Of a stretch of DNA of 64,000 nt, positions 41,301-59,634 are shown in pieces. The position numbers were made by a program, and so were the translations under genes. Where the stretch lies: the NCBI RefSeq assembly GCF_027409185.1, contig NC_084462.1, positions 24,341,577 to 24,405,576 on the forward strand. The letters run 5' to 3'. This DNA is from Cynocephalus volans. Lineage: Eukaryota; Chordata; Mammalia; Dermoptera; Cynocephalidae. The number at the start of each line of letters is the position of its first letter. Position 1 is the first letter of the stretch. The notes below the pieces were generated by a model. The model saw only the letters and a list, made by a program, of their open reading frames with translations. It did no database searches and was not told where the DNA came from.

Positions 41301-42317
41301 CATTTGCTCCGCTTGAATACTTAGTCTCTTCTCATGCCAGAATCCCGCTTTTTCCTTTAAGCCTAAAATCACTTGTAACCTTCTCTAGACATATAGCCGG
41401 ACCAGTTTACTGTGCTACGTGTCTGTCCAGCAATGTCTGCCATAGAGCAGGTGCTCAACAAGCATGTGTTGAATGAGAATAGAAATTGGATCACAGACAA
41501 GATTTAGGAAAAAGGATGTGACTTAGGGTTGGGACAAGCTTCCCAGATTCTGCGTTTCTTACCATGCCAGCAGGGCCTCATCGTGTGCTGTGGTCACCTT
41601 CAAGTAACTCCCACTCGAGTGACCAACTAAAGAGTTGCAGGGCAGGGTAGGCGGTTGAGCACAGAACCAGAGCTCACTGGAAACCACATCCCTGTACTGG
41701 CAGGTAGGTCCTTTTGCTCCAGTCGACTGAGGGTCAACATTGCAAATCACAATCTCTTTAGTTCCATTGGACCCCTGGAAATACCCCCTAAAATCAACTG
41801 TGGCCCTTTTCTCTCTCCAGATTCTCCTCAGAACCCCAACTGCCTCGCTGGAGTGGATCAGCCGCACTTGAACCTGGGCCTCCCCAGCCCAGAGCAGGGG
41901 GAAGGACAACAGGTATGTGCCATTCTCCAGATCCTGCACATCCCCAGGGACCCCTGCCTTCAAGTCTGGACTCAACAGCTGTGCCCGAAATAGATCCCCA
42001 CCATGGGTCTTGGGTCTGCCCCGGTGGTCCCTGGCCACAAGGACAGCCTCTAGGTAGCCACCCAGAACATAGCTGGCCTGGACAGGATCCCTCAGGTGGT
42101 AGGTGGAGGTCTGGGGACTGGTGGAGGACAACAAGTCCCCTCTGTCTCCCGGGGTCGGAGGCCAGTACGGAATTCGGGTCAGGTTGGTGAGCTCCTGGGG
42201 GAGACAGTCCAAGAGTGGGAGAGATTCCGTGGATTTGGAGGCAGATTTAGAGACAGGACGGGGTCCTGGAGGATGAAAGATGGTGCTTTCAGGCCAGGAT
42301 GTCTTGAAATAGAATAT
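13830..42317 (-). CDS. NXPE-family gene, copy A (spliced, coding exons intact, start exon not found)
   Basis: Four minus-strand exons (41563-42317, 34675-34754, 32751-32963, 13830-14362) join in phase to give 526 codons plus a stop. With a 32-codon start exon like that of copy B, the product would be about 558 residues, the usual length of the family. Order: stem with glycosylation sites, neurexophilin-like domain, then a PC-esterase domain with GDS in exon 3 and an Asp...His pair in the last exon. The family consists of secreted or type II membrane glycoproteins; its substrate is not settled in my knowledge. All splice sites are GT-AG. I find no start exon between 42318 and 47760, so copy A either lost it, has a diverged one, or borrows the exon at 59520. 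Which NXPE member this is cannot be told without an alignment. Confidence 0.8.
14450..15345 (+). repeat. L2-like LINE fragment
   Basis: Long C/T-rich text with 'ccttgaactcaatatgcagaaatgaatctatcatctc' type phrasing of the L2 3' region. No open frame of note. Confidence 0.5.
15410..16240 (+). repeat. Ancient mammal-wide repeat, class uncertain
   Basis: The text 'ttgagaggcatccacatggagatattaagttggcagctgg...gaggtctgggcc' is a widespread old mammalian repeat that I recognise by pattern but cannot name safely. The open frame 15842-16114 is a by-product. Confidence 0.45.
16260..16620 (+). mobile_element. Old L1 3'-end fragment
   Basis: 'tttattcacagtggcattg', 'ccaggtgtccagtaataa' and 'catccatacaataagtc' follow the order of an L1 tail. 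Confidence 0.55.
16621..18690 (+). mobile_element. L1 ORF2 fragment (endonuclease to RT), dead
   Basis: It begins in the endonuclease region ('gacacagatagactgaaagtcaagggatgg'), passes the palm region ('caggaccagatggcttcatgaatgaattct' near 17880, 'gatcaagtgggatttacccc' near 18145) and stops before the 3' UTR. Only short frames remain, such as 17790-18026. The next L1's 5' UTR abuts it at about 18695. Confidence 0.8.
18711..18957 (+). repeat. Tandem units in the L1 5' UTR
   Basis: Three imperfect units of about 80-90 bp start near 18711, 18791 and 18880. Each contains a 'cagcagctg' or 'cagcaggcc' start, 'gaggtgrgcca', and 'gcacca...agtct.ag'. Tandem 5' UTR monomers are known in mouse L1, where they act as promoter units; here the role is inferred. 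Confidence 0.55.
19236..19960 (+). pseudogene. L1 ORF1 remnant (RNA-binding chaperone)
   Basis: The frame 19322-19603 encodes a Lys/Glu-rich coiled-coil segment with [20 protein letters not shown], typical of ORF1p. The frame 19665-19958 encodes the RRM and C-terminal part ([19 protein letters not shown], then a [10 protein letters not shown] segment). The two are out of register, and the start region has a stop near 19317. Confidence 0.75.
20347..23430 (+). pseudogene. L1 ORF2 remnant (endonuclease-RT)
   Basis: From 20347: [20 protein letters not shown] (endonuclease start). Then the frame 21267-21650, and RT motifs in frames 21942-22241 ([15 protein letters not shown]) and 22405-22647 ([12 protein letters not shown], the catalytic Asp pair). 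At least eight stops or shifts separate these frames, so there is no functional protein. Confidence 0.8.
23461..24160. repeat. Ancient repeat, LINE-like, family uncertain
   Basis: 'gggctacaaaatggtgatattccagtg' and 'gaaatttcccctcaccaatcatttgg' are phrases of an old mammalian repeat. Orientation not determined. Confidence 0.4.
24161..25379. other. Unassigned sequence
   Basis: A/T-rich text without an exon or clear repeat. Frames 24387-24605, 24739-24927 and 24896-25165 have no recognisable homology. Confidence 0.35.
25380..26545 (+). mobile_element. Old L1 3' end interrupted by an LTR
   Basis: 'acccaaaggaggttaaaattt' (25418) continues after the LTR as 'gcacacaaaaacctgcacatggatg' (25883), then 'ttattcataattgcc' and an L1-type 3' UTR to about 26545 with an A tract. 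Confidence 0.65.
25452..25879 (-). mobile_element. Solo LTR, minus strand, related to 1857-2177
   Basis: On the minus strand it starts TGGGAGGAAAAT, carries the TTTGTAAACAA block, the hairpin segment (25685-25707) and AATAAA (25591-25596). The right end is set by the L1 text resuming at 25880. The left end, about 25452, is less certain. Confidence 0.6.
26546..27097. other. Unassigned sequence
   Basis: Old A/G-rich text, possibly ancient repeat; nothing I can name. Confidence 0.35.
27098..28675 (+). mobile_element. MER5A-like hAT DNA transposon, split by an L1
   Basis: Left part 27098-27168 ('agtggctctcagacttcag...ggagggcttgtcaac') and right part 28555-28675 ('ctgattcagtaggtctagggtgggg...gaccgcttttgagacccactg') are the two halves of the non-autonomous MER5A type. 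The middle is the L1 at 27169-28554. Confidence 0.7.
27169..28554 (+). mobile_element. 5'-truncated L1 inserted in the MER5-like element
   Basis: It starts within late ORF2 (27180 onward, 'aacaaaaggtgctgggaaaactgg'), runs through the 3' UTR and ends in an AATAAA-bearing A-rich tail (28532-28554). Target duplication acacaggctgctggg (27154-27168) versus acacagactactggg (28555-28569), two mismatches in 15. Confidence 0.85.
28850..29170 (+). repeat. L2-like 3' end
   Basis: 'actcatctcaaatgaaactgcc...' then 'cctagaatctagggcagtacc...acatgtgctcaaaagta' is the L2 end pattern, interrupted by a T/GTTTT-rich tract near 29070. Confidence 0.5.
29171..29339. other. Short A-rich spacer
   Basis: No feature seen. 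Confidence 0.4.
29340..29780 (+). repeat. LTR-like fragment
   Basis: 'gataaaaggagcctgggttcctgaat...' followed by 'aaaataaactttaattggtcaagccc' resembles the end of an old retroviral LTR with its AATAAA signal. Uncertain. Confidence 0.35.
29797..30304 (+). mobile_element. 5'-truncated L1 3' end
   Basis: Typical L1 tail from 'ccataaaaaagaatgaaatcctgtcattc' to an A-rich end. Target duplication aagaattactagtg (29783-29796) versus aagaattacaagtg (30305-30318). Confidence 0.8.
30305..30480. repeat. Old repeat related to 4160-4330
   Basis: Shares the 'cagggtccaat', 'catcacacc' and 'taaagaatgattaact' blocks with the earlier copy. Confidence 0.45.
30481..30889. other. Unassigned, probably old LINE sequence
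   Basis: No gene seen. 'ccctctggtgtcacagggtgaatttctttc' has a repeat look but was not identified. Confidence 0.3.
30890..31825 (+). mobile_element. Old L1/HAL1-like fragment with 3' end
   Basis: First an ORF1-like stretch ('caggtgtgggaattatctgataag' type text near 31036), then from about 31155 an L1 tail ('gttggcaaggacacagagcaac', 'ccattccgctttaaggtatttac') ending with 'actatacctcaataaagag'. Confidence 0.6.
31826..32750. other. Unassigned intron sequence of NXPE copy A
   Basis: No repeat or exon recognised until the donor at 32750. Confidence 0.35.
32751..32963 (-). CDS. NXPE copy A esterase exon with GDS motif
   Basis: 213 bp. Acceptor TTCTTGTAG precedes CACTGTCTCC; the donor is GTGAGA (32745-32750). 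Incoming and outgoing phases fit the neighbours (one base carried in, one carried out). The 71-codon stretch ends in [18 protein letters not shown], where Gly-Asp-Ser (codons at 32794-32802) supplies the nucleophilic serine of the PC-esterase fold. The cysteine before the motif also fits the family. Copy B's counterpart (49855-50035) is 32 bp shorter and has GGS. Confidence 0.88.
33020..33172 (+). repeat. MIR SINE
   Basis: 'gccaggcactcttctatgtactttatatgtattatttcatttactc' followed by 'ggggacactgaggcactg' is the MIR core and 3' half. Confidence 0.75.
33176..34470 (+). mobile_element. Old L1 3' end, with a MITE-like insertion
   Basis: Late ORF2 text ('agcaatcccacttctgggtatatacccagagg') runs into the 3' UTR. 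The L1 resumes after the 33901-33978 insertion and ends around 34470 in A/T-rich sequence. Confidence 0.65.
33901..33978. mobile_element. MITE-like palindromic element, copy 1
   Basis: Inverted ends of about 26 bp: 'agggtacttcaaaacgttc' at the left, and the reverse complement of 'gaactttctgacataccct' at the right. Total about 78 bp with no coding capacity. Probably a Tc1/mariner-type non-autonomous DNA element; family not named. Confidence 0.65.
34675..34754 (-). CDS. NXPE copy A short linker exon
   Basis: 80 bp. Acceptor TTTCTCTAG precedes GAATGTGAC; donor GTGAGT at 34669-34674. The first G completes a Trp codon begun in the previous exon, and the rest reads [15 protein letters not shown] and on to ILG. 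NVT is a glycosylation site. It links the neurexophilin-like part to the esterase. The copy B counterpart at 50128-50201 has two codons fewer. Confidence 0.85.
34826..34903. mobile_element. MITE-like palindromic element, copy 2
   Basis: It starts 'aggggtcttcagaaaattc' and ends in the reverse complement of the same end ('gactgtttgaagtaccct'). Same length class as 33901-33978. It lies 71 bp upstream of the copy A linker exon, within the intron. Confidence 0.65.
34904..35689. other. Unassigned intron sequence
   Basis: The 114-codon frame 35046-35390 has no recognisable homology and no splice support; treated as chance. Confidence 0.35.
35690..36497 (+). mobile_element. Two adjacent old L1 3' ends
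   Basis: 35690-35935 resembles the tail at 26370-26545 ('gtaacagatgcaccacactcatgg', then a G-rich run). 35936-36497 is another tail ('cccagcaattccacgcacggg...' to 'ttataccttaataaagtag'). Confidence 0.6.
36498..37229. other. Unassigned intron sequence
   Basis: No exon or named repeat recognised. Confidence 0.35.
37230..38135 (+). mobile_element. Old L1 3' end
   Basis: 'tgctggtgggagggtaaaatgatac', 'agcagctttattcataatag', then the 3' UTR and the ending 'cctcacaataaaaagttaac'. Confidence 0.65.
38782..38897 (-). mobile_element. tRNA-Ile-derived SINE
   Basis: On the minus strand it reads ggctggccagttagctcagc and 'caaggtgaagtgttcagatcc', then an A-rich tail. The ends are approximate because the flanking duplication is blurred. 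Confidence 0.7.
39070..39169 (-). mobile_element. tRNA-Ile-derived SINE
   Basis: The minus strand carries the same tRNA-like body with 'gctcagttgtttagagc'. Target duplication tgtataatttcttt (39056-39069) versus tgtacaattccttt (39170-39183). Confidence 0.7.
39914..40341 (-). mobile_element. ERVL-MaLR-type LTR, minus strand
   Basis: 428 bp with TG...CA ends. Plus text 'ggctgggaagtacaaggtccagggg' and 'tcattaaggccccaccttcc' is the antisense of the MaLR LTR pattern. Target duplication tacag (39909-39913) versus cacag (40342-40346). Confidence 0.65.
40917..41050 (+). mobile_element. tRNA-Ile-derived SINE with (GAAA)n tail
   Basis: The body 'aggctggctggttggctcag...ggttcagatccccgtactggccagcc' is followed by an A/T stretch and a (GAAA)n tract at about 41022-41045. 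Confidence 0.8.
41290..41480 (+). repeat. L2/MIR-like 3' end
   Basis: 'gccatagagcaggtgctcaacaagcatgtgttgaatg' is the standard end of L2 and related elements. Confidence 0.55.
41563..42317 (-). CDS. NXPE copy A main exon (stem and neurexophilin-like domain)
   Basis: 755 bp and 251 codons, open throughout. The acceptor is a good pyrimidine tract ending CTACCCACAG before ATATTCTATTTC; the donor is GTAAG at 41558-41562. The first part ([12 protein letters not shown], then a Pro/Ser-rich stem with NLT) leads into the neurexophilin-like domain: [59 protein letters not shown]. The exon ends in a Cys-rich stretch (ICNV, PTCQY, ELWFCA, TLPCNS). It begins in phase 0, which is exactly how the 59.5-kb start exon ends. 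The copy B counterpart is interrupted by an LTR and carries stops. Confidence 0.9.
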
Positions 42318-43599
42318 CTGTGGGTAGAGAAGGAGGAATCTATCAGTGGTTAGTGTTTCTTTCATTTTCTTCTGGGAAAGAGATTTCCATTCACCAAACC
42401 TAGTCCCCTCTGCCAGGGGTACCCAGGAGTCTTGCTTGCCTGCATCATGCCATCTGTCACCCTTAAGCCTGGTATCTGAGTCACCACCACCTTTATTTGA
42501 AAGGAGTATCTCATGTTGTGAAGATGAAGTTGTGTCTCTGGTTTAGCTCAACCATCTCCTGTCAGCCTTCTTATTCCATCCACTACCAACCCCCAATGTG
42601 GCATTCTCAGTGTCCCTTCTTCTCCTGTTCCCTCTCTCCACAACTCCACCCCCACCGTCTCCACACCAATTTTCCAGTTGAGAGTCAGGGGTGGCTGAGA
42701 CCTTTCTTTGATGCTCCTGAGGGTCATAGAAGAATGAGACGAGACCATCCCTCAGTGACTTCCCTCTGTAATTGGGCTGAGCTAGGGGTGAGAAGGGATT
42801 CAACCACAGAAACCATTGGGAAAGCAAGAAAATGTAGAAAGGCACAGAACAGGTATGGGTTGGCCAAAGGAGTGAGATACAGCACATTCTTTCCAAGGAA
42901 AACATGGTGTTTGCTATGACAAGGAGTCCTCTCCAGAGGCCCAGACTTTTTTGGTCTCATAGTCTGAGAAACACAAAATCACAAATATAGACCAGAGAAG
43001 TAGAAGAATCCAAAAGAGAAGAACACTGGAGAGGGGCCACATTCTTTGTGATGTGGGTTGTAGTGAATGGGAAAGGGAATCTAGGCACCTGGCCTATGGG
43101 ATCCTCACTTATACCCATCAATGGTCCCTTCTTATTCAGGCAAGTGTACTTCACAATAAAAGCACCCCTCTGACACATCTCAAATTCCAATCTATAGCAA
43201 GATGGCCCAAGATCTACCAAGCAAATTTATACTGGAATTAGAAGTTTGAGCTTCAGAGACATCATCTTCTACTCGGAAGGTTGGTAGTGCAGCTATGTCC
43301 AATGTCATGAGGCACAGAGATGACAAACCTGCTTTCCCCCTTTAATTGTCTTCTAAACTGACTATTTACCTCCTCTGTTAAATTGTAAACTCTTGGAGTG
43401 TTGCATTTTCTCTGGATCTAGCACAATGGATTGTGGAAAATCCTCAGTGGGTGGCTTAGTGATAAAAATGTGGCCTCTAGGCAAAAGCCAACACAGAAGC
43501 CTTTGGCATGAGTGAAAGGAGCATAGATAGAGGGAACACTGTTCTAGGGGCAGAATTAGTAAGAGAGGAGTCCAGATTCACAGGTCATAAGTTAACAGG
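42318..43599. other. Unassigned; 5' side of NXPE copy A
   Basis: Pyrimidine-rich text (42550-42680) resembles the copy B intron near 56500-56700, so part of the duplicated unit. I looked for a membrane-anchor start exon on the minus strand and did not find one. Confidence 0.4.
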
Positions 43600-43995
43600 G
43601 ATTCTGGCTTTGATCACCATGGTACCCTGCATAATGGCCCTCAAAGATATCCGTGTCCTGATTTCTGTCCACTGTGAATATGTCACCCTATGTGACAAAA
43701 GGAACTCTGTATATGTGATTACGTTAAGGGTCATATAAGGGGAAGATTATCCTAAATTATCCAGCTCAAAATGTAATCACAAGTGTCCTTATAAGAGGTA
43801 GGAATTTTACTACAGAAGGCAGAGATGATGCTATGATGGGAGCAGAGGGGCAGAGGCAGAGAGCCTTGAAGATCTGAAGATGCTCCACTGGAGTTTGGAT
43901 CCTCATACTGGCCAGCCACCAAAAGAAGCAGCAGCTCCTACACTGCTGGCTTTTGACATGGAGGAAGTGACCATGAGCCAATGGATGCAGGCAGC
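43600..43995. repeat. Old interspersed repeat (LTR or similar) with a SINE scrap
   Basis: 'atggccctcaaagatatccgtgtcctg', 'tgtgaatatgtcaccctatgtgac' and 'gtaatcacaagtgtccttataagagg' are a widespread old mammalian repeat. At about 43893-43920 'ggatcctcatactggccagccacc' is the 3' end of the tRNA-Ile SINE. Confidence 0.5.
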
Positions 43996-44007
43996 CTCTA
44001 GAAATTG

Positions 44008-45735
44008 AAAGCGGGGGGGCTTCCAGTCAAGATGGTTGGATAGACGGTCCCCAGCATCAGTCTCTCCCACAAAGTGACTAATTTACAACTATTAATAGTA
44101 ATGACAGCCAAGCTGGGGCCACTAAGCTCAGGGGAAGAGGGGAAGACACCTATGGAGTGGATGATGGTCGGAGAAGCTATGAAGAGAGAAAGAAAAAACC
44201 TCCCGGCCACTTCCTGGTTGAGGCTGCTGAGCACACAGAGCAGGAGCTGGAAAAAGCCGCAGCTGTGCCCTTCAGATGAAGTTGTTTGCAGGCAGCAGGG
44301 GAGAAGAGGGCCTTGGTGCTCCCAGGCCATCAATAATTGGGTTCCTGTGGATCCACATTGGACTGAGGAGCCACAACAACTGAAAAACAGGAGCCACTCA
44401 GAGACTGGCAAGTCATCGCAAGGGACAGGAGCATGGCCCGTCCCATGGGAATTGTCTGGAACATAGGTGCTGGGGGAGATGGGCCCACCGGGAGAACACT
44501 GGGGCATAGCAAGGACAGCTGATCTGCCTCCCAATCAGCATGGGACCACTCAGAGGACACTGGTCAGGAATATAGAATTGCATGGGGTGCGGTTTGATGA
44601 AAAGACTCAGGCCCAGACCAGTGTTTCTACACAAGTCAGGTGCACCGGATTTCACTAGACCCAGAAGTATCTATAAAGTCAACCATAAAAACTGGAGCTT
44701 CACAAAAAGCCTTCCCTAGGGAATCAGCAGCCAAGCAGCAATTTAGCTCAACCACACAGCTCAAGTACTGGTCCGCATGGGAAGTTCCCCCACTTCAGAA
44801 GTAAGCAAAGGACAACAAATTAGTTCTAACACAGAGTTAAAGTGGTGGGAACAGGAAATAACCCAACACAGAACTGAGAGAAAGGACAAAGTACCCACGA
44901 CCAGAGACAAAATTTGATATTAACTAGTAAAGGTCTCATTTCACCAAAGAACACCTATAACATGTAGAAGGTCTGGAAGTCCTCTGGGCTACCAAGCCAG
45001 AAAGTGGGGAGGGCTGGGGGCTTCAGCCATGCCCCCAGCACTTGCAACCAGGCCCGAGGGTGGTGGCCTCGGGCTTCGGTCACACTCCGACAACACAGGC
45101 AACCAGCCCAGTGATGACCACCAAGCCACCACCGGAAGTGCCCCGGGCTCTCCCAAGCCAGGGTTGTAGGGCACTGAGGGCCTCAGTCACAGCCCCCGCA
45201 CACAAGCAACCAGCTCAGGGCCGACCACCCAGATGTCAGAAATGAAAAATGATACAACTACAGCTGAGGCAGATATGAAAAGGATGATACACTTGTGGAA
45301 ATAAATTTCAAAATTTAAACAAAATAGACACATTTCTAGAAAACTGTGCCAAAGCTGACTCATGAGGAGACAGAAAACATCATTAGCGTACCATTTTTGA
45401 AAAGGTTTCCTTTCTCACAAGAAAAACTATAGGCTCAGTTAGCTTCACCAGTGAGTGTTATCTAATATGTAACAAACAAATAACTTCAATCTTGCAAACA
45501 TCTTTCCGAGACTAGAAAGAAAAGGGGGGGCGGGGCGGAATTCCCAATTCCTTCTGCAAGGCTAGCGTCACCCTACTAAAATCTGACAGGACTACTATGA
45601 GAAAGGACACTTACAGGCCAGTTTCACTTATGAATATAGATGTACAAATTCTAAACAAAATGTTAGTAAACCAAATCTAGCAATGTATAAAAAAGGTAGT
45701 CCATCACAGCGAGGTTGGGTTTATCTCAGATATGC
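44008..45735 (+). mobile_element. L1 fragment: 5' UTR joined to ORF2 text
   Basis: It starts like an L1 5' UTR ('cttccagtcaagatggttgg'). At 44990-45235 it has three similar units, each 'ggcytc.g.cac....c.gcaaccag'. It then passes to ORF2-like A-rich text until about 45735 without ORF1. The 178-codon minus frame here is a shadow of the GC-rich UTR. Confidence 0.65.
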
Positions 45736-45739
45736 AAGC

Positions 45740-46260
45740 TTGCTTTTAGAGAAATAATTTGTGTTGTTCATATCTTCTATATTTATATGAATTTGGGGGG
45801 TCTCTTTAATTAGTAATTAAGAGAAGTGTGTTGAAAACTCCCCACTACGATAGTACACTTGCAGATTTTTTCTTTTAGTTCCAACAATTTTTTGCTTAAG
45901 TTTAGAGACTATTTTATTAAATGCATTCTTGTTTAGAATTGTAACATATTCTCAGTGAGTTGAATTTTTAATATTATATGGTGATCCACACTATTTCTAA
46001 TGATGATCTTTGTCTTAAAGTCTATTTTTTTTCCTTTATTATTATAATTAAGCCAGCTTTCTTTGGTTAGAATTTGCCTCACATATTTTTCTTCTATTTT
46101 TAATTTTCAATGTTCTTCTCCAGTCCTTGACCATGTGAATATATGATTTCCATAGAGGTATAACAATAGGCCATTTATAGTTTTTTATTCTGCTTAAATT
46201 TTTTTTCTTACCATTTTAGACAAAGCTAACCTTTTCCTTAAAATATCCTTCAAGGTTCAG
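45740..46260 (-). mobile_element. L1 fragment, minus strand (endonuclease region)
   Basis: The plus text 'tgtgttgaaaactccccactac', 'gatgatctttgtcttaaagtctatt' and 'gccagctttctttggttagaatttgcc' is antisense L1 ORF2. It abuts the plus-strand L1 fragment head to head. Confidence 0.55.
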
Positions 46261-47760
46261 CTCAATAGAGATTAGTTAGAAACAACCTAACTGTCAAAGA
46301 AATGATGATTACATCATAAATAATGGTAGTTACAAACCAATATAAATGAAAGCTTTGGGTCATCCTACCAGGTAAGTCACCAAGAATTGCAGAGGCGATA
46401 GCTAGAGGTGAGGGGAACGTAGAATAAACAGAGAAAGAGGGAGAGGATGACTACCAGTTGCCGCCCTCAGACCCACTGCAGCAAGAGGGGCTGCGGGTCA
46501 TCGCACTGACCTCCCTCCTGTGAGTCTCCTCTCATGAAGGAAAGCCCCTGGGAACCACAGAGGAGTTGCTCCCTGACCTCGTATGAAAATGTAGCTCTGT
46601 GCAGTACGAAGGGGTAGACTGCGGCAGCCATGAGAGTGCATTTTGCAAACCTCTAACAACAGGGACTGTAACTGACTGAGGCACCCACTGCTAGTCAAAT
46701 CCTGCACAGTGAAGCGCTTTTCCCATGGGATGCTCACAGCTGATGACAGGGCACAGCAGAAATACTAAAGCTGGCCCATCCCTGGGAGATGCAGGACTGC
46801 CCTGATGGTCACCTTTGATTCAAGGACTTCCCAACACTCCTGCCAAACTTTCCTTAGACTGGACAGTGTCCTAGCATGCTCCTTCCCATGCTCCTTTACT
46901 CAAGGTCAGCCTTGCATCAAGGCTGACAGCTGTCCCAGCCTCACCTGCTACCTCCACATTATCTCTCACAGGTGTTTCTTCTGCAATAATGTTTGCATTT
47001 CTAATCCTGTCTCAGCACCTACTTCTTGGAAGACCTGCACTGAACAACGGGCATAGCAAAATCCTCCTAAATGTCCATTAGGACATTGGAATAATCCCAT
47101 CACATATATCTGAAGTGAAAAACAAAAAAGAAAAGGGAAGGGGGATAGAAAAAAATTTTGCTACTGAAAAATTATTGGGAATATATATGCTTAAACCATG
47201 ATTATCTCCCAGTCATGGGATTCTAGGTGATTTTTATTTTCTTTATTCATGTTTTTTGGTGATTTTTCAAATTTTCTTCAAAAAGCATGCATTACTTTTT
47301 CCAATTAGCAGAAACAGTTCATTTCACAAACCACTACATAAGACTCCTTATAAATGTACATTCAGGCTTTCCACGAGGGTAGCCTTGATAAGCTGAATCG
47401 GAACCCATCTCATATTTTTGCAAGGCTCACTGACACCTTAAATGGAGAAGAGGGCACATAAAATGACAATCTTCATACGTACTGATCGTGGATGTTGCTG
47501 TCTCTGTCCCCTCCCTCATCCCTCAGCACTGCTTTTACATGTGGGAACTAAAACTCTGGAGATGAACTGGGCCACTTCCGTGTTTCCCTCCTTTTTCTTC
47601 TCCTGCCATTGCCCAAGTCCCAATTCTTGCTGGTCAATTTTATGAACTGTACAGATGCTGGAGGTAAGAGAAAAGATACTGACAGCTGAGGGGGGAAGGA
47701 TTCCTGGCTTGATGGTCACACTAGTTTCCCCATCACCCATCCCAGGACCCTCGGGAGCAC
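46261..47760. other. Unassigned sequence between NXPE copies A and B
   Basis: No exon found. The minus-strand frame 46498-46737 shows no family resemblance. An old LTR or L1 tail may be present but I cannot support one. Confidence 0.35.
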
Positions 47761-48293
47761 TCAGGTGGGGCAGATGAAGGAGAGGAGTAAGTCCACCTCA
47801 TTGCCGACGATGAGTGGCCCCGGGTGGATATTGTCTGGCGGGGCCAGGCTGGAGGTCATTTCCCAGGCATCCACAAGGGCCACACGGAGGTCAGCGAAGG
47901 CAGTTCGCAGGAGCCAATTCAACTGGAGGGTGAACCCATCACTCCCATACACAGACTTGTAGCCGGTGTAGGCCAGTTTGATGACCACAAGAGTGCTGGG
48001 TTCCCAGGCCAGCAGGGCGGCCACGGCCACCCAGATCCCTGTCAGTCATCACACAAAAATGGATGGAGGGAAGGTGGTGAAGTGAGCTCCCAGGCCCAGC
48101 ACCACCATGGTGTGGGAGCCCCCGGCCAGGCCCCCCAGCTGCCAGGCCACAGAGTGCAGGGAGGCCACTGGTGTGTGGAGCGAGCGCAGGGGCCAGCCGT
48201 GGGCTCGCCAGTGCAGCACTATGCCCCGAGAGGTCTCCACCACCATCAGGGGCCCCGTCTGGTATGTGACATGTAGATCCACTGGCTTCAGGG
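47761..48293 (-). pseudogene. NXPE copy B last exon with two adjacent stops
   Basis: Same 533-bp length as copy A's exon. The frame 48049-48293 reads MDLHVTYQT to FPPSIFV and stops at TGA TGA (48046-48051). Copy A has CGA CGA, so both are CpG-type changes. After the stops the same frame resumes ([28 protein letters not shown]) to TGA at 47761. The Asp and His of the esterase remain. Confidence 0.9.
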
Positions 48294-49393
48294 CTGTGCA
48301 GAGTGTGAGGGTGGTCAGGGGTTAACATAGGGCTGTACTTTTCATTTAAAACTACAAAGGATCTAGGTTCTCTTTTCTCTTAGCACATAGGTATCCTACG
48401 ACCACCTGGTTTTGCTCTTCCTAATGTGTGATATTACCAGTCACCTCTTAGTTCCCAAATGTGAAGGCTTACTCTCAGTCCCCAGACACTTGAGCAGGAG
48501 GGTAGACAACATCACACAGGCCTCCAGGTCTCCAGGTGGGGCAGCTGGTGTTTTCAGATAGCTCGTGTAAACAAACAGCAGCCCACTTCCAGACTATTTC
48601 ATGCCAAGAGGCCTGATAAGGCTGCTTTCATGCTTGTGGGTAAGAGGGTAGAGCAATGGGGGCTCAGGGGGGTTCCCTTCATGAGAACACAGACCCGTGT
48701 GGACCCTACACACCTCTCTGTGGGGTGAGGGAAGACAGGTGGTGGAGGGGGTGGGTGCTCATGTTCTCTTTTCTTGCTCATCCTTGGCTCTCATGTTACC
48801 CTTTTTCCGCAGTAAGGCATATTCCTTCATTCACGTTATGTTGCATTGTGGAATTTGTCCTAAACCCTAGTGAAAGGTGAAGACTCAGATAAGACTCAGC
48901 TTGCATAACAGTCTGACCTCTTTTAACTTTTATCCCCAAAGAAGTAAATACCAAAACTCTGTCTGAAGCACTGACATCTCACTTCAATTCCTATCTTGTG
49001 TCTTCAAATGCCTCATCCACTCGTTTCCCTAGAGGTCCCCTCCCACCTCTTTAACCCAGTGTGAAGGGCTATGAAATAAATACACCGTCTCCTCCTACTC
49101 CTGCCCCCTGGCTGCCAATCCAGGCACCCCATTAACCTCCATTTGCAGTTCATTTTGTGGTTATCTAGAGTTATTCGGTCATTTCCATTCATTCTAGAAC
49201 CAATCACTCAGCAAGTACTGTCAAGGCCTCCAGCATCCTTCCTTTACTGCTGACACTATATTTCTTTACCTGTTCAGCCTCTCCCTGCCTCACATGTGGA
49301 CTGTACAGCTGTGTTATGACTGGGCTTTGCCCTCTCTTTTTTCAATCCCATCGGTCTAACGAACTGAAAACTCTGCTTAAAAACATCCAGTGT
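48294..49393. other. Copy B intron, mostly unassigned
   Basis: Possibly L2-derived text at 48970-49350. No exon seen. Confidence 0.35.
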
Positions 49394-49503
49394 ATGGCTG
49401 GCCCGTGGCTCAGTTGGGAGAGTGTGGTGCTGATAACACCAAGTCAAGGGTTAAGATCCTCTTACCAGTCATCTTTTAAAAACAAACAAACAAACAAACA
49501 AAG
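49394..49503 (+). mobile_element. tRNA-Ile-derived SINE, young copy
   Basis: The body 'ggctggcccgtggctcagttggg...gctgataacaccaagtcaagggttaagatc' has an (A/CAAA)n tail. Perfect 15-bp target duplication aaaaacatccagtgt at 49379-49393 and 49504-49518. Confidence 0.9.
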
Positions 49504-49854
49504 AAAAACATCCAGTGTCTCCCAATTGTCACAACACAAACCCCTAAATCCTGGATTCTCTACAATTCTCTTCTTAAATTCCAACTCTGTTCCTCCAGTA
49601 CCCCTCAGCAAGTCCTCAGGTCCAGACAAGCTTGTGCATATACCTGCTCTCCTGTAATGTGGAGATTATGCATAATCAAGTCACCCTGTTTCTCAGCCCT
49701 TCCCCTGCCCCAAAGCAGGCGTCCTGTCCTTTCGCATCACTCTACTGAAACCCAGGCATTTTGCACCATTGACAGGATGTTTCCTGCCTTCTCACAGCCC
49801 TCTTACTCCTCTTGTTCTTTTCAGTGTCCTACTCCCTCCCCCATGGCTACTCAC

Positions 49855-50035
49855 AGGGCACGGTGTCACACAGATATTCCCAGCACTGCCGGAATGTGGA
49901 GCCCCCCATCATGTGGACGATGTGGCCATCCAAGATGCTGTCAGCAGTGGGAAGGAGTGGCAGGCGCAGGCCAGCGGAAGCCAGAGGGCTTTGGGGCTGG
50001 GATCCCAGGGTAGCGTGGCTGTTCAGGGGACAGAA
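49855..50035 (-). pseudogene. NXPE copy B esterase exon, frameshifted, GGS
   Basis: Acceptor CTTACAG precedes TTCTGTCC; donor GTGAGTAGCC at 49845-49854. At 181 bp it is 32 bp shorter than copy A's 213 bp, so the incoming frame ends at a TGA. The GDS end lies in another frame and reads HIVHMMGGSTFRQCWEYL, the catalytic motif changed to Gly-Gly-Ser (codons at 49898-49906). Confidence 0.88.
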
Positions 50036-50127
50036 CTGTAAGCAAAACGATAAGCAGGTACAGAAGAGGCTAAAGCTGTGAGCGTGAAGTAAGTGCTGCC
50101 CTTTCTGCAAGCCCCAGTGCCACTTGC

Positions 50128-50201
50128 CCAGACTCTCTCTCCTCTCCCTGGCCATGACGATTGGAGAAATACACCGAGGGAGGACGTTGTCTGTCACATT
50201 C
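50128..50201 (-). pseudogene. NXPE copy B linker exon with a GC donor
   Basis: Acceptor TTCTTTAG precedes GAATGTGACAG; reads NVTDNVLPRCISPIVMARER and on to SLG over 74 bp. The donor is GCAAGT (50122-50127), where copy A has GTGAGT. GC donors can work, but this one adds to the decay. Confidence 0.85.
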
Positions 50202-51013: not shown

Positions 51014-51029
51014 AGAAAACAGGCTGGCC

Positions 51030-51602
51030 AAAGGCTTCGGTGCCCTGCCTGGGGGCCCAGGGCATGGAGCTGGAGACCAGACCACCCCTACAACCAGGCA
51101 AACCGCCAGTGCCAAGGAGCATACCAGAAACATCACCTCCGTGTGGATCGCCCACCACAGCCACCACAGTAACCACGGCTGCCACGTAAGTGGCTAGATG
51201 ACACAACCACCACACAGATGGTCCACCAGCCACTGGAGTGCCCTGACACAAGGAGAGTCACCAGCAGAGACCAAAGAAAAGAAGAGGATGTCTCTCTCCA
51301 CAAAGCCCATTCCAGAGTGACAGCAGAAGCATCTGCTCTATGATAACACTGGGGGACCTGAACACACCTCTCAGCATTGGACAGATCATCTAGGCAGCAA
51401 ATCAACAGAGTAACCATTACTCTTTCAGAAGGAGAGAAGTAATCTAGGGTTTTCAGTGGGGGGGGGGGAGATTGGACAAGGGGCATAGAGAATAAGTACA
51501 ACTTGTAACAAAATACATACTAGTAATATTGATTTGATCAATGTATGTCAATTGAATCCCCAGAATATGTATAATCAATTATGATTCAATAAAAACAAAG
51601 AA
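51030..51602 (+). mobile_element. 573-bp internally deleted L1 derivative
   Basis: L1 5' UTR text (51030 to about 51340; compare 19080-19180) joins a short ORF2 piece ('gggggacctgaacacacctctcagc', compare 20770), then 3' UTR and a tail with AATAAA (51589-51594). Flanked by perfect 16-bp duplications agaaaacaggctggcc at 51014-51029 and 51603-51618, so it entered as one unit, inside the head of a SINE. Confidence 0.75.
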
Positions 51603-51608
51603 AGAAAA

Positions 51609-51690
51609 CAGGCTGGCCGGTTAGAATACAGTGCTGATAACACCAAGTCAAGAGTTCGGATTCCCGTACTGGCCAGCCGCCAAATAAAAC
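51609..51690 (+). mobile_element. tRNA-Ile-derived SINE, split at its head by the L1 derivative
   Basis: 'aggctggccggttagaatacagtgctgataacacc...gttcggattcccgtactggccagcc', then A-rich. Its first bases are also present before the L1 derivative at 51021-51029 as part of the duplication. Confidence 0.8.
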
Positions 51691-51719
51691 ACAGAAAATA
51701 CAAAACACAATTAGTGCAC

Positions 51720-52160
51720 GAAGATGTTTGGAGCCTTTTATAAGAAGAATTAACTCTCCTCCTGGTCTCACAAGCCCCACCTGGCAGATCCCCGCTTCCA
51801 TTCTCCCCGAAATGGCGGAATCTGACGTCAGTTCTCTGCACCAAGCGTCAGCCTTCGGCCCAGCTGGACGCTCCGCCCTCCCTGAGACTCCCGCTTCCCC
51901 TGGCTTCCGGGACGCTTCAGTGTCCTGGTGGCTCCTTTCCTGACTCCTCCCCTTCTCCTCAGCCTCTCTCGGTTGGAGTGTGCGCTTCAGTCCTTGCTCC
52001 TCTTTTCTAATTACGCTCTCAGCCTCCTGATTTAGTCTCAGCCTAGACTTCTCAGCCCAGTTCCAGGTTTGTGGACCTAACCGTGCACTCAGCACCTCTG
52101 CTCCGTGTCTCATGCACACGAGCGGACCTGGACTCCCAGTCTCCACCCTCGCCTGCCTCA
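51720..52160. other. GC-richer block with a CRE-like palindrome
   Basis: CpG dinucleotides are denser than in the surrounding DNA (roughly 20 in 400 bp), with a TGACGTCA palindrome near 51824-51831 and a 'gaaatggcgg' just before it. It could be a relic promoter or an old repeat. No exon attached. Confidence 0.35.
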
Positions 52161-53330
52161 CACGTGGCTTTCACCATTTCAGCTGATGGCACCAACTCCT
52201 TCCAACGTCCTTCCAGGGGAGCAGGCTCAAACCCATCTGTGATTTTCTTTTTTTTTTTTTTTCGGCACATTCCACATTCTCTCTCTGAGGAAATCCTCTG
52301 GGCGCTGCCTTCAGAATATGTCCAGAAATGAATCCCTTTACTGCGACCTTTACTACTATAACCTAAGTCCAGGGCCTGATCACCAAGAGCCTCCTACCTT
52401 TCAGTCTCCCTGTTCCTCCCTTAGCCTTCTGCAGTCCATCCTCATTTTTTCCCCATTTTAAAAATTGTGGTAAAATACCCATACATAAAATGTATCATCT
52501 TAACCGTTTTTAAGGGTACAGTTCCTGGTATTCAGCACATTCGCAGTGCTCAGCAACCATCACCACCACCTGTCTCCAGAATTCTCCTCATCTTGCAAAA
52601 CTGAAACTGTGCCCATTAAAAACTAAATCTTCATCCCTCCCTCACCCCAGCCCCTGGCAACCACCACTCTACTTTCCGTCTCTGTGATTTTGACTACTCC
52701 AGATACCTTATATAAGTACAACCATACAGGACAGATGACTCTAACTACAGAAGTCTGAGAGGCCCTTTTGAAATGTAACTCATACTATGGCTCTCCTCTG
52801 CTCAAAACCTGCAATGACTCCCCTGTCACTTAGAGCAAAAACCGACATACAGAGCCCTTGCTGGTCACGCTGTGCCCTCCTCTTAACCTTCCTGGTCTTT
52901 TCATCTACCGTTTTCATCTACCATTTGGCTTCCCTGCTGCTCCTCAGATGCACCAGGCCTGCTCCTGCATCCTCTCCACCCGGAATGCTCTTCCCCCAAG
53001 TATCTCCTTGGCCAACTCTCTCACCTCCTTGCTCTCATCTCATTCCTCAAATGTTGTCTTCTTAATAACATCTACCCCAATTCCCTATTGAACATTGCAA
53101 CTTGCCCCCACCACACTCACTCCTAATCTTCCCTCCTCTATATTTTAAAATTTCCATGTCACATATTTCTCTCTAACATCATGCATAATTTACTTATTGT
53201 TATGTGCATTGCTTACTGTCCCTTCCTCCTGTCACATGTAACTGAACAAGAGCAGGTTCTTCAACAGTTTGTTCAATGCTCTATAGAGCAGGGACACACA
53301 GCAGGTGCTCACTATGCATTTGCTGAATGT
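52161..53330 (+). repeat. L2 LINE, interrupted by an L1 fragment
   Basis: L2 text at about 52161-52454 ('caccatttcagctgatggcaccaac') and 52775-53330 ('ggctctcctctgctcaaaacctgcaatgactcccc' to 'gtgctcactatgcatttgctgaatg'). The latter is the clearest L2 3' end in the window. Confidence 0.75.
52455..52740 (-). mobile_element. Old L1 3' fragment, minus strand, inside the L2
   Basis: The plus text 'attgtggtaaaatacccatacataaaatgtatcatcttaacc' and 'gcaaccatcaccaccacctgtctccagaa' is antisense L1 tail. Confidence 0.65.
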
Positions 53331-53929
53331 CAGAAGGGACTAATTGAAGAGCTTGTGTCTTAGGAGGAGTGGGGAATTTGCTTTCTGGCTGGGAGCAATG
53401 TGGGTGGGGGGGCAGTTAGAGAAGATTCTTGAAATTTGGAGAGATCCAAAAGTGTGGTGTGCTCTGAGAGTATCAAGTCACCAGTGCCCCATGGAGGTGA
53501 CAGAATTCAGGGGGCAGGTGCAGGACGATCCCAGGGACCCTGGATCCACGTGGAGGCATCTGTTCCCCCAGCAGGGCCCAAGATCACACAGGTTTGACCA
53601 ATTAGCACTTTGGGGAGACCATTGTGGACAGAGGACTAAGGAAGGATTCCTGATGGTCAAGGTGGGCTCCTTTGCAGGAGCCTAGGTGAAGGGAAACCTC
53701 CTTACCTGTCCAGCTTCAGAGGTCCTGAGAATTGGATTAAAGTTGATGTAAAGAAAACACCTGAACTTGGGATCTCAAATCCTGTCCACTACACGTTCAC
53801 CACACATGCAATTATCTTTAACATCCGTCGCCTATCAGCAGACTGTTACAGCATCTGGCACAGCGTAGGGAGGGGCTCGACAGCAACAGATGCCCGAGGC
53901 AGGATCATAAAAGCTAACAGAGCCATGTT
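53331..53929. other. Copy B intron, unassigned
   Basis: Minus-strand and plus-strand frames here have no homology that I recognise. Confidence 0.35.
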
Positions 53930-54130
53930 CCTGTTCTAAGCCCTTCACATACATTAACTTAGTTGTCCTTACCACAGCTCTATGAGGTAGGTACTATTAT
54001 TATCCCCTTTTACAAATGAGAAAACTGAGGTGCAGAGAGGTTAAGTAACTTAAGTAATCAGAGATGACATTAATCGTAATTGGCAAATAGTAACTGGTGG
54101 AGCAGGGATTCTAACCCAGGCACTTTCACT
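53930..54130 (+). repeat. MIR SINE
   Basis: 'tatccccttttacaaatgagaaaactgaggtgcagagaggttaagtaactt' to 'ggagcagggattctaacccaggcac' is a clear MIR. Confidence 0.85.
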
Positions 54131-54839
54131 CCAGAGACGCTGGCCTTTACTTCCACGTGACATCCCGAGGCGACTCCTGCTTCCAGTCATAGGTTTATTT
54201 CCAATTGACTAATGCAAAAGCGACACGTGATTCTTCCTTTCTGACCAAAAAGAGCAATACAAATTGGTCTGAAAAGACCGGGGTTTGCTAGTGTTAAATT
54301 CTCTGGCTGGAGAGTGAATGCTACCAGGAATTCCCCAGACACGGGAAAGCTCCAGAGGTGGGCGTCTGGTGCGAGAAGGCACCATGGGCATCTCCAGCTC
54401 AGCTCACTTCTGCGCTTCTGAGCTCCCCCGGTCACAGCGGGCCGCTGCTAACTTTTACGCTCATTAGAGCTCCCTTCTGCGGGGCCTCGGAGCAGCAGCC
54501 AGCTCAATGGCCAAACTCGCACCTGAGCTTCCAGGCTGTAGTGTTCCCTTCTCCCTCCGTGGGGTCACATCCAATTCTCTTCTCCCTGCTGTTGTTTTCT
54601 AAATCTACATCCCTCCTTGCAGCGGCCGTCAGAAGGGTGGAGAGGACTGGGACTCTTCCCTTTTTCCATAGGTCTGTGGTTCTCTTTCTAGCATCAGCGA
54701 AATTGTCACGTGTCCTGACCATCATAGGCCAGGTTGGGTGCCCTTTCTCTGTGTCATCAAACCACTCAGGACATACTATGCTTAAGCTCTCATCACACTA
54801 CATATTTTAAAGTCATGTGCCTCTTCACTGACAACTTGT
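54131..54839. other. Unassigned, moderately GC-rich
   Basis: The 150-codon frame 54358-54810 has no recognised domain and no splice support. Confidence 0.35.
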
Positions 54840-54960
54840 AGAGAGCAGGGGTGCCAACTGTTTTCCATCAGTAGTCAGTCAGCACTTGGTGTGAGAGCTG
54901 GCATATAGTAGGTGCTCAGCAAACGTGTTTAATAGAAGTGAGATGAATGACAAGGGAAGC
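54840..54960 (+). repeat. L2/MIR-like 3' end
   Basis: 'agctggcatatagtaggtgctcagcaaacg' is the common end of these elements. Confidence 0.55.
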
Positions 54961-55024
54961 AGTTTAGGCAGAATAATAACAGTGACCAGGATTCAGGCAC
55001 CCCAGATGAGGCTGGGTTTCTTAC

Positions 55025-55567
55025 CACGCCATCAGGGCCTCTTTATGGGGTGTAGTCACATGCCAGTAATGTCCAGCTGAATGTCCTAGCAGTGAGTCAC
55101 AGGGCAAGGTAGAGGGCCGAGCACAGAACCAGAGCTCACCCGAATCTTCCTCCTTGTAGTGACAGGTGAATTCTTCCCCCCCTGTCAACAGGGCGTTCAC
55201 ATTGCAAGTCACATTTTCTTCATATCCTGGGGGTCCCCGGAAATAACCTATGAAATCCACTGTGGCCCAATAGTCTCTCCAGATTTTCTGCAGAACCCCC
55301 ACAGCCTAGCTAGAGTGGATCAGCCTCACTTGCACCTGAGCCTCCCCAGCCCAGAGCAGGGGGAAGGACAACAGGTATATGCCATTCTCCAGATCCTGTA
55401 TATCCCTAGTTACCCCTGCCTTTAAGTCTGGACCCAAGAGCTGTGCCCAAAACAGATCCCCACCATGGGTCTTGTGCCTGCCTCGGTGGTCCCTGGCCAC
55501 AAGGACAGCCTCTAGGTAGCCTCCTAAGGTATAGCTGCCCTGGGCAGGATCCCCCAGGTGGCAGGTA
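55025..55567 (-). pseudogene. NXPE copy B main exon, 3' part
   Basis: Homologous to copy A 41563-42100. Reads [20 protein letters not shown] to RLIHSS, then TAG (55306-55308, Glu in copy A), then AVGVLQKIWRDYWATVDF to ALMAW. The donor GTAAG is kept (55020-55024). Confidence 0.88.
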
Positions 55568-56052
55568 TATTAGGCCTCACGGCTAGTTTAACATCAGCAC
55601 ATGCAGGTTAAGCAACTTTCCCCCTTCTCCCCCTCCCGTTTCTGTTTTCTGCTCTGGGAACTGAGATCCCTCTCCTCAGAAGGGGTAATATCCCTCTCCT
55701 GGGAAGGGGTAAACATTACTGTTATCATCCAAGGAATGTCTTGTGGTCTGTGTTTAGCAGGCTTCAGGCTGGAATGCTTCGTACCGAGATAGTGGCTAAT
55801 CAAGAGACTATGCCTTAAGCAACCAGATGTTATCAGACCACAAGGGCTGTGTCACCTTGCACACCACTGATTTCAAAATTCCCCACTACTCTGTCAGAAC
55901 CCTCCCTAAGAGTCTTATAAACCTCCTGCTTTCCTTGGTTTGGGAGAACTGATCTGGTTCAGTTTCCCCTCCACGTTAGTGGAATAAACCTTTTGGCTAA
56001 AATGGCTCCTGGACTGGGTGTCTCTCTTTTCTCTGTGTTGCCGAACCTAACA
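55568..56052 (+). mobile_element. Solo LTR inserted in the NXPE copy B main exon
   Basis: 485 bp starting TATTAGG (from TGTTAGG) and ending CCTAACA, with TATAAAC near 55916 and AATAAA at 55983-55988 on the plus strand, antisense to the gene. Exon text stops at 55567 and resumes at 56053 ('atgtggaagtctgggg', compare copy A 'gtggaggtctgggg' near 42104). The short target duplication, about 4 bp, is blurred. Solo LTR, probably class I by length and ends. Confidence 0.85.
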
Positions 56053-56238
56053 ATGTGGAAGTCTGGGGACTTGTGGAGGCAAGAACGTTCCCATCATTTC
56101 CCGGGGCTAGAGCCAGTAGAGAAGATGGGTCAGGTTGGGAAGCTCCTGGGGAGGTGAGCCAGAGGACTTGTGTGCAGGGCTGGGCCCTGGAGGCTGAGGG
56201 ATGGGATTGTCAGGCCAGGAAACCCTGAAGTACCCGAC
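56053..56238 (-). pseudogene. NXPE copy B main exon, 5' part
   Basis: Starts after acceptor CTACCGAAAG with VGYFRVSWPDNPIPQPPGP (copy [13 protein letters not shown]). Reads to LPNLTHLLYWL and hits TAG at 56107-56109. One base is missing relative to copy A just at the stop, so the frame is also shifted. The stem is shorter than in copy A. Confidence 0.85.
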
Positions 56239-57719
56239 CTTTCGGTAGAGAAAGAGCAACCTGTCAGTGGTTTGTGTTTCTTCATCTTCCGAGAAGGAGA
56301 TTTGAATTTGTCAAACTGAATCCTCCTCTGCCTGGTGAGTCTCAGGCAGGCGTCCTGCCTGCCACATGCCCCCTCTGACCAAAGCCTGATGCCTGAGCCA
56401 CCAGCCCACACATCTGCACATATCATAGCATATTTAAAGCCATATGTCTGTGGGTTTTGCTAAATCCCACAGAGAATAAAGAGCGTCTCTGTCTCCTGGT
56501 CCTCATTAGCTTTTACCCTATGACCTGCACACACTCCTACTGCCACCAGAGGGGAGTCTAGGCTCAGCTCCACCCCCGAGTCCCTGGCTGTCCCCACTCC
56601 TGATAAGTCCTTCTCCCTCAAGACTCCAACACCTGGAGTAAATCCCCCTTCCTCTCCTATTTCCTCTTTCCCCACCCCTGTCTCCACCATCTCCACCCTA
56701 GACTTAGAAAAAGGATTTTCTTTACATATAGAAGAAGGAGCCCTTCCTCAGGGAGCAGACAACAAAATCGGACACACGGTGATCCCAGGGATTTGCACAA
56801 TAGCGGAAAGGAGAGAGATGCAAGAGAAGACGGATAAGCCCTGAAGGGAAAAGCCGCATAAATGCACAGGTAAAAGGGAAAGGTGGGAAATGAGTGAGCG
56901 AGCCCCCAACCAAAATCCAAGTCTCAGGAAAGCACAAGCCAAAGTTGGCTTGCCGCATGAGAAACATATCCATATGGGTATGGGTACATCAGCCCATCAG
57001 GGTCTCCCTGTATGGGACTTTCTCTGACTGCACCTTAATGTCAAGGATCTTGACCCCGTGTTCAACCTTTCCTCATAGCACAGATATCAGGTAACATATA
57101 TGCAGTCCTGGCCATCTGATACTCCCACCAGGGCCAGGGCAAAGAGAGTGCCCAGGTGGCTCTCTCTATATGTATCTCCTGGATGAAATCAACATAAGCA
57201 GGAAGAAAGACTTGGTCGGCACAGCAGGAAGGGCGACCTTCACCCTGGCCGCTTGACCTGTCCCAGAGGCACTAAATTAAGTTCCTGGAGGTCTTAATTA
57301 TCTTCTCTGTTTCATCTCCTATGAGTTGTTGGCAGAGTTTGTGAGCAAGATATTTTAGGGATGTGTAAATTTCCCTCTACTTTGAAATCAATAAAAAATG
57401 CATCCATTCAATCTCTCCCTCAATAAAGAATGAGCACTTTATTATAGGTGCTGGTGTTAAAATGATAAAGGACAGCACCTGCACCTTAGTTAATCCAAGT
57501 CACCGAGAACTGTAATAAGTGCTGGGGTACGTAAGGGGCCCCTGCCCATACTGGGACGGGGGAGCCGGCAGCAGGGGAAAAGATATGAGATGCTTGAGCT
57601 GAGTCGTGAAGGAAAAGTGCAGGTGAGAAAGGCGGAGCAATTATGAAAGAGAGAGCAGAATGTACGAAGATGGAAAGGAGAGGGGGCATGTCATTCATTC
57701 CAATACAACTCTTAGGAGA
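56239..57719. other. Copy B first intron, mostly unassigned
   Basis: 57420-57690 has the look of an old repeat ('aataagtgctggggtacgtaag'). Minus frames here are pyrimidine-tract shadows. Confidence 0.35.
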
Positions 57720-58860
57720 AAATAAGGCAAACTCTTCACAACCTTGGATTTGGCACTGACTTCTTGGATATGACACCAAAGGCACAGGAAACAAAATAAA
57801 AAATAGACAAATTGAACTTCATGAAAAATTTTAAAGTTTGGGTATCAAGAGAGGCTATTAACAGAGTAAAAAGGCAACCCATAGAATGGGAGATAGTGTT
57901 TGTAAATAATTTCTCTGATAAGGGATTGAGATCCAGAATATATAGAGAACTCCTGAAACTCAACAAGAAAAAAATGAACAACTGGATTCAAAAATAGGCA
58001 AAGGACTTGAATACACTTCAAGGAAGATACAGAACTGGCCAGTAAGCATACAAAAAGATACTAAACATCACTAACCATTAGAGAAACACAAATCAAAATT
58101 GCAAGAAATACCACATCACCATCAGAAAATAGCAAGTGTTGCTGAGGATGTGAAGAAATTGGAACACATGTGCACTGTTGGTGAGAATGTAGAATGGCAC
58201 AGCAGCTGTGAAAAACTAGGGTGGTTCCTCAAAATATTAAAAGTAGAACTACTATATGATAGAGTAATTCTATTTCTGGGTATATACCCCTCAAAATTGA
58301 AAACAGCATCTCAACGAGATATTTACACACCTGTGTTCATAGCAGCATTAGTCACAATAGCTAAAACATGGAAGCAACCCAAGTGGCCATTGATGGATGA
58401 ATGGACAACCAAAATGTGGTATATACATATGATAGAATATTATTTAGCCTTAAAAAGGAAGGCAGTTCTGGCATATTCTACAACATGGACGAACCTTGAC
58501 GACACTATGCTAAGTGAAATAAACCAGACACAAAAGGACAAATATTGTATGATTCCACTTACAGAGGCAGTTATAGTAGTCAAAATCATAAGAGACAGAA
58601 AGTAGAAAGGTGGTTGCCAGAGGCTGAGCGGTGAAGGGAATGAAGAGTTACTTAGCAACTAAAGAGTCTCAGTTGTACACGATGAAAAGAGCTATGGGGG
58701 TGGATGGGGGTGATGGCTGCACATTATGGATGTACTTAATGTCACTGAGCTGTACACTTAAAAATGGTTAAGATGGCAAATTTTATGTTATATGTATTTT
58801 ACCACAATTTAAAAATATATATAAAATATAAGAAATAAAGAAATAAAAGATTCTCATTTA
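57720..58860 (+). mobile_element. Old L1 3' end
   Basis: Starts in late ORF2 ('ttggcactgacttcttggatatgacacc'), includes the 168-codon frame 58099-58605 (C-terminal ORF2 text in A-rich DNA), and ends around 'gttatatgtattttaccac'. Confidence 0.75.
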
Positions 58861-59519
58861 CACCAGAACTAGTCACAGGAACCATAACTCATCCCAGGTT
58901 AGACACTGAAACTTTTGACTTAACATCCAAATAAGATGCTGTGGAGGCAACTCAATTTGAAGCCCATTGTTATCTGGTTTAGCACAAGTGATTTGTCCTT
59001 TGTAAATACACAGGTTTATGTCTTTGAGTTATCTTTTGCTTTGTTTCTTTATTCATTCCTGGTAAAACTCCTTTTTGAAGTACTACAACTTTCTTTCTCA
59101 GCAGAACCAAGGGGAAAAGGAAACGTCTACATGTGCAGCAAGGTAGAGAGGAGGAAAGGGGTGTCCCTGGAGACAAGGTATGGAGGTTACAGTGCCTCTC
59201 TCAGTTATGAGAAGTGGAAAGGAGCCAGCTGAGCTGAAGCAGAAATGTAACAACTTGGAGAAAGAGAAGGCTTGGAAAGCATAGATTTCTATCTTCTCCT
59301 CAAACTGTTTTGGACACCCTTAAAGCCACCCCTACTTGTTACAATTTGCTCGCTCTCTTTCTATGAACTTGTCCCACCACGACACTTCTGCTCCTGGATT
59401 AGAAGCTGGAAAATAGAGTGAGGAAATGGAGGTTTTTTCTCAGCCTCCTTCTCCCAGATGCAGGTAACTGGTTCAAGCTCTATGGGAGGATCGAGATGAG
59501 TGGAAAGAGGAATACTCAC
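58861..59519. other. Copy B first intron, unassigned
   Basis: No repeat recognised. Confidence 0.35.
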
Positions 59520-59634
59520 CCAAACTGCAATGACCAACCCTAGAACCACAATCTTGTGCCACGTGAACGGGGTGATGAAGAGTTTTGTGGACGCCTGGGC
59601 TTGTGTATTAGACATCTGGCACGTGACTGAGATC
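59520..59634 (-). CDS. NXPE start exon (cytoplasmic tail and membrane anchor)
   Basis: Acceptor CTCTACCCAG ends at 59635; 19 bp of leader precede ATG at 59613-59615. It encodes 32 codons: a short polar N-terminus (MSNTQAQASTKLF) and a hydrophobic stretch (IVVLGLVIAVW). This is the signal-anchor arrangement of the family. It ends in phase 0 at GTGAGT (59514-59519). The exon is intact although the rest of copy B is not. It is the only start exon I can find for either copy, and its phase matches copy A exon 2. The acceptor shows that a further upstream leader exon must exist. Confidence 0.7.

Follow-up and report, generated by a model that had tools for sequence, protein, structure and literature searches.

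The 64,000-nucleotide stretch of colugo (Cynocephalus volans) DNA analysed here, called the window below, lies inside a tandem array of NXPE5-type genes (C3:24341577-24405576, where C3 is contig NC_084462.1). It contains two gene bodies on the minus strand, copy A and copy B, and one start exon, by which we mean the exon with the coding start. Copy A is open in exons 2-5 and headless, and copy B is dead. We consider it probable (about 0.8) that a tandem duplication with a break in intron 1 of the A gene explains the missing A start exon, which would be lacking because its own exon, E1A, was left at the head of the array. One start exon for two bodies had been claimed from the sequence of the window alone; this was confirmed, and its cause is probably that duplication. 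Decay is the usual expectation for a copy that lacks its start exon. In this array, the copies without one have multiplied and, wherever they were read, remain open, and it is the bodies with a start exon of their own type that are broken. The features of the window are listed below.

41563..42317, minus strand: exon 2 of copy A (E2A), open, phase-0 acceptor after CCCACAG
34675..34754, minus strand: exon 3 of copy A (E3A), open
32751..32963, minus strand: exon 4 of copy A (E4A), carries the GDS motif
13830..14362, minus strand: last exon of copy A (E5A), DXXH motif and stop
44017..45240: repeat with the tandem-duplication junction, L1-like by eye, limits by eye
59520..59634 (coding 59615-59520), minus strand: B-type start exon (E1B), signal anchor MSN...AVW, scores 53 bits with the B-type exon-1 model
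55025..56238, minus strand: dead exon 2 of copy B (E2B), with a frame change, TAG and an insertion resembling a long terminal repeat (LTR); full-length match and insertion in five other units
55567..56054: LTR-like insertion in E2B (~0.49 kb), the gap between two A/B alignment pieces, LTR by eye
50128..50201, minus strand: exon 3 of copy B (E3B), GC donor, alignment gaps
49855..50035, minus strand: exon 4 of copy B (E4B), deletions, GDS changed to GGS
47761..48293, minus strand: last exon of copy B (E5B), TGA TGA

The array and the probable origin of the headless A bodies

A search of the assembly (2.81 Gb) matched E2A in at least seven places and the split E2B in at least six, all on C3. The array covers ~0.5 Mb (C3:24285054-24785076), with seven A bodies and six dead B bodies matched, and A exon 2 repeats every 65.9 to 87.5 kb. 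On the minus strand, the order is E1A, A7, B6, A6, B5, A5, B4, A4, B3, A3, B2, A2 (the window), B1, A1. The DNA read comprised C3:24650001-24850000 and selected pieces of the other units, 298,311 bases in total, some of them overlapping. Among the matches listed in the NXPE5 and colugo/NXPE literature, no paper title on a colugo NXPE5 array was found.

Homologues are of two types by their first exon, an A-type (MGPFMEQFKGYK..FLVW; MGPF..FLVW in orthologues) and a B-type (MSNKQLQASTDLF..IAIW). The NXPE5 A-type orthologues have the same exons 2-5 as copy A at 81-84% identity, together with the NXPE4_C and neurexophilin domains, but they begin with the A-type exon 1, which was not found for the copy in the window. 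When the A-type exon-1 model was tried on 29 orthologous exons that had been left out, 28 were recovered at E<1e-4; the exception, from hedgehog, scored 7.6 bits (E 0.086). This model gave no A-type exon 1 in the whole 64-kb window, and copy A has no start exon with a membrane anchor of its own there. The sequence-only reading had found no A start exon in 42318-47760, and the homology search it asked for, together with a scan for anchor-like exons, likewise returned none there. The A-type model and the anchor scan also gave no decayed A-type exon in that interval. The homology between the A and B introns was tried as a route to the start exon and abandoned, as it stops after ~170 bases.

E1A (MGRLMRQFKEYMILALGLVFLVW; C3:24785076-24785008; 34.6 bits) runs from ATG to TGG over 23 codons and is followed by the donor GTGAGT. 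It sits 17.1 kb ahead of exon 2 of A7, the 5'-most A body, and no other A-type exon 1 was found in the 298,311 bases, while B-type exons were found in five read units and in the window. A7 itself is broken: stops occur both in exon 2, which is shorter by 11 bases, and in exon 4, which is longer by one. The A7 exons retain splice sites with GT and AG. The array yielded no complete gene of either type, since A7, which stands beside E1A, is broken, the B copies are dead, and the other A bodies are without E1A.

The window aligns with intron 1 of A7 at 91% over 41261-44971. The homology ends at ~44971, past which only 105 bases match in the A7 intron, at 74%, and window segment 44972-47760 matches the B6-A6 junction at 99%. 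The distances from E5B to E2A in the six units are 5444, 5444, 5444, 5449, 5715 and 5713 bp, which suggests that they share the same junction; the junctions of the window and of B6-A6 were read whole and the other four in part. The repeats on the two sides of the break appear to be of one kind (L1-like by eye), which makes an exchange between them a fair guess.

The founder would have been a complete A gene (E1A, E2-E5) followed by an already dead B gene (E1B, E2-E5). A tandem duplication would then have had one break in intron 1 of A (window ~44971, in the repeat) and the other downstream of the last B exon, and the later A bodies would have been left without E1A. The break and the missing exon are observed; the order of events we infer. 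Copy B keeps its introns and carries disabling lesions, as expected of an unprocessed pseudogene. In every one of the six matched B copies, exon 2 is interrupted by the same LTR-like insertion, and therefore B was probably dead before the array grew.

In unit A6, ~6.3 kb of extra DNA separates exon 5 from the site equivalent to window position 15400 (C3:24646127-24653495). Units A1 and A4 also seem to hold extra DNA near the A exons.

Possible constraint on the headless A bodies

Copy A exons 2-5 are open, with compatible phases. The earlier statement that exon 2 starts in phase 0 with a good acceptor agrees with our results: E2A begins in phase 0 after CCCACAG, and its acceptor scored 11.0 versus 7.7 for E2B. 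The Pfam models gave 260.8 bits for NXPE4_C and 61 bits for neurexophilin (cut-off 27 for both), and the catalytic motifs MMGDSTLRQ (GDS) and PDKIHPG (DXXH) are retained. Copy A is nearer to the A-type than to the B-type orthologues (0.91 vs. 0.77 for E2b and 0.73 vs. 0.54 for E3); the two types cannot be told apart by exons 4 and 5.

All four exons were read in bodies A2, A3, A5 and A6, and they contain no stop or indel. Single changes were seen in two copies: next to the GDS motif, A3 has W in place of R, and a leucine that the references share is P in the window copy. Compared with 30 A-type proteins, 2 of 200 conserved columns are changed in the window A, which resembles a functional gene in this, and 13 of 165 in the window B; with A and B references used jointly, the figures are 3/218 and 12/177. 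The headless A bodies differ by 19 synonymous and 20 nonsynonymous changes (P 0.013 vs. neutral; ratio of nonsynonymous to synonymous rates, dN/dS, ~0.46), and the B exons minus E1B by 14 synonymous and 26 nonsynonymous ones (P 0.20). No indel was found in the A exons, for which 2.4 to 11.7 were expected, depending on the yardstick. The B exons have 4-6 (four places, two of them with two alleles), and the introns 23 per 143 substitutions. From these comparisons of sequence we lean slightly towards the view that the headless A bodies are weakly constrained.

Several results weigh against this account of a simple duplication followed by constraint. Duplication of an [A body + B] unit predicts a seventh B beyond A1, and none was matched; the last stretch read beyond A1 (to 24282770) holds the last exon of A1 and no other exon match. 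Two of the six headless bodies are known in part, A4 from exons 2-4 and A1 from exons 2 and 5, both open as far as read. A1 may be damaged, because the public model P0002, which matches it, is without exon 3. The contrast in substitution type between A and B is not significant (Fisher P 0.26). E2A differs between A1/A3 and A2/A4/A5/A6 by 25-26 of 755 positions, which is near the intron value of 3.3-3.9%, and gene conversion could keep the A bodies open without use.

The B-type start exon and possible routes to a protein

The coding part of E1B runs from ATG to TGG over 32 codons and ends in phase 0 before the donor GTGAGT, so that the exon at 59520-59634 is intact, as had been read from the sequence. 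It scored 53 bits with the B-type model versus ~9 with the A-type model, and it is therefore of the B-type. Its anchor helix is complete, with a mean hydropathy of 2.24 across 17 residues, and both the reading frame and the canonical splice sites, donor included, are intact in all six units. Scanning for anchor-like start exons followed by a GT donor in phase 0 gave none in 42318-47760 and two in 47761-64000. One of these is E1B and the other (61101-60934) appears to be a chance match, which leaves E1B as the sole exon near A in the window with an NXPE-family anchor and a phase-0 donor. The acceptor-like TCTCTACCCAG at 59635-59645 directly adjoins E1B, and for this reason a 5' untranslated exon, and maybe the promoter, probably lies further upstream.

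Joining 59615-59520 to E2A-E5A on the minus strand gives a stop-free frame of 558 residues, the normal family length that had been predicted. Neither this length nor the phase match was taken as support for a hybrid, as both follow from the family; the phase match is uninformative because the A-type and B-type first exons compared enter exon 2 at the same point. The intactness of E1B was likewise rejected as proof of use: by our own arithmetic, at ~7 lesions per 1.58 kb exon 1 is expected to be open ~2/3 of the time (~0.65), and its divergence is like that of the flanks. The coding part differs between unit groups at 5 of 96 positions versus 25 of 792 in the flanks (B2 vs. B1), and its variants are 4 nonsynonymous and 2 synonymous.

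A hybrid of B-type exon 1 and A-type exon 2 was looked for among homologues. Exon-by-exon comparison covered 93 proteins (the first 100 of the best 120 of 271, minus 7 distant or partial ones). The type of exon 1 could be assigned for 65 of them (45 A, 20 B) and not for the remaining 28. The typed proteins comprised 38 A with A-type exon 2, 14 B with B-type exon 2, and 13 in which exon 2 does not separate the types; none of the 65, drawn from the best 120 of 271 listed, was a hybrid. Another 23 proteins, inspected by eye across residues 1-130, included no hybrid either. A search limited to residues 1-90 returned three proteins (P0001, P0002 and P0003), again with no hybrid, a negative that covers cluster representatives, as the seven sequences of the P0001 cluster were not viewed separately. 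A looser rule flagged mouse P0059 as B-type, but its identity of 0.12 is noise. The reverse mixture occurs in sloth P0013, where an A-type exon 1 precedes an exon 2 whose first part is B-like.

If the A bodies become a membrane-anchored protein, the likeliest way is that transcripts from the front of the dead B would join E1B (59520) to E2A (42317), with the B exons skipped, and each unit would yield a 558-residue membrane protein. We hold this proposal of the sequence-only reading to be rather unlikely. What stands of it is that E1B is the only NXPE-family anchor exon upstream, that it restores phase and length with a complete helix, and that the arrangement of E1B, dead B and open headless A recurs in six units; an intact donor in each unit, the stronger acceptor of E2A and the open state of the A bodies also fit it. 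Nothing in the results indicates that the E1B-E2A junction forms, and the splice itself is disfavoured by the absence of hybrids from all three surveys and by an E1B that diverges like its flanks, with four of its six variants nonsynonymous. Moreover, the dead B exons retain usable-looking splice sites (acceptor scores of 8.4 for E3B, 9.2 for E4B and 6.3 for E5B), and polyadenylation signals AATAAA at 47247 and 47238, between B and A, would be met before A. It is slightly more doubtful still that the array holds a chimeric gene repeated in up to six units, with a dead paralogue kept as promoter and anchor exon over four dead exons. The bodies may instead be recent partial copies with no protein product, open since the array is young and kept alike by gene conversion, in a family that is dying out at this locus after A7 lost its frame; we rate this as fairly plausible, though short of an even chance. 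The units are ~1-4% apart, E2A diverges nearly like the introns, and A7 and the six B copies are dead; against this stand the lack of indels in the A exons and their deficit of nonsynonymous changes.

Two other sources of a start have to be weighed. The closest public proteins among the matches listed come from Cynocephalus volans. Neither E1B nor E1A is used in two public models of A, P0001 and P0002. P0001 is closest to A5/A6 and maps exon by exon onto the window structure with 3 residues different. Its first exons (47740-47537, 47434-47360 and 47109-47023) would mean that a new start was recruited from the 3' flank of B at the junction. We judge this unlikely: the N-terminus of P0001 is without an anchor (best mean hydropathy 1.3), and P0002 uses other exons (46501-46454 and 42703-42656). 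Differing first exons for 97%-identical copies suggest that the models are guesses, and these exons look invented, the evidence behind the models not being visible. Caution is thus advisable with the first exons of public models of such headless copies. E1A keeps its ATG, 23 codons and donor, and could in principle be spliced past the broken A7 and B6 into a downstream A body. This is very improbable, as it needs an intron of ~105 kb to reach A6 (467 kb to A1) and skipping of the exons of A7, which keep splice sites, and of B6. A start read through from intron 1 (MKETL...) was rejected; it is without an anchor (hydropathy 0.61), and similar read-throughs occur in the models of other mammals. 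The frame above exon 2 is open over the 40 codons viewed in all seven A copies.

Related systems and minor observations

In tandem RNA chimeras, one gene is joined to the next on the same strand by intergenic splicing. The colugo locus has neighbouring genes on one strand in compatible phase, and intergenic splicing is proposed here. The array offers a natural test of whether the front of a dead paralogue can keep a truncated copy in use; if the borrowing is true, a gene family survives there although no complete member was found. Tandem duplication is reported to be able to create chimeric gene structures in Drosophila yakuba (PMC5460883). The colugo arrangement, as predicted from its sequence, would differ in that the front comes from a dead paralogue, all of whose exons lie between, and in being repeated six times.

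NXPE1, a sialic acid O-acetyltransferase seen in human colon, is reported to acetylate sialic acid in vitro and to lose this activity when the serine of GDS is changed, and has a predicted N-terminal transmembrane domain (PMC12216134). Copy A keeps the GDS and DXXH motifs named there for NXPE1, and by analogy it may function as an NXPE-family enzyme; it is, however, another gene, and its anchor is not encoded with it. Another study lists colonic Nxpe5 as 33-fold higher in one mouse strain than in another (PMC3739790).

In three of the six species compared, A and B resemble each other much more closely in the last exon (window 13830-14362 and 47761-48293) than in exon 2, with pairs among P0009/P0043, P0010/P0061 and P0008/P0034: in rabbit 175/176 for the last exon versus 162/241 for exon 2, in Fukomys 175/176, and in naked mole-rat 170/176. 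The likeness is weaker in marmot (163/176) and guinea pig (156/176), and the sloth pair does not fit (89/122). The sequences look as if the last exon had been shared or converted repeatedly between A and B. At 9521-10100, the window contains reading frames that by eye resemble fragments of a retroelement polymerase.

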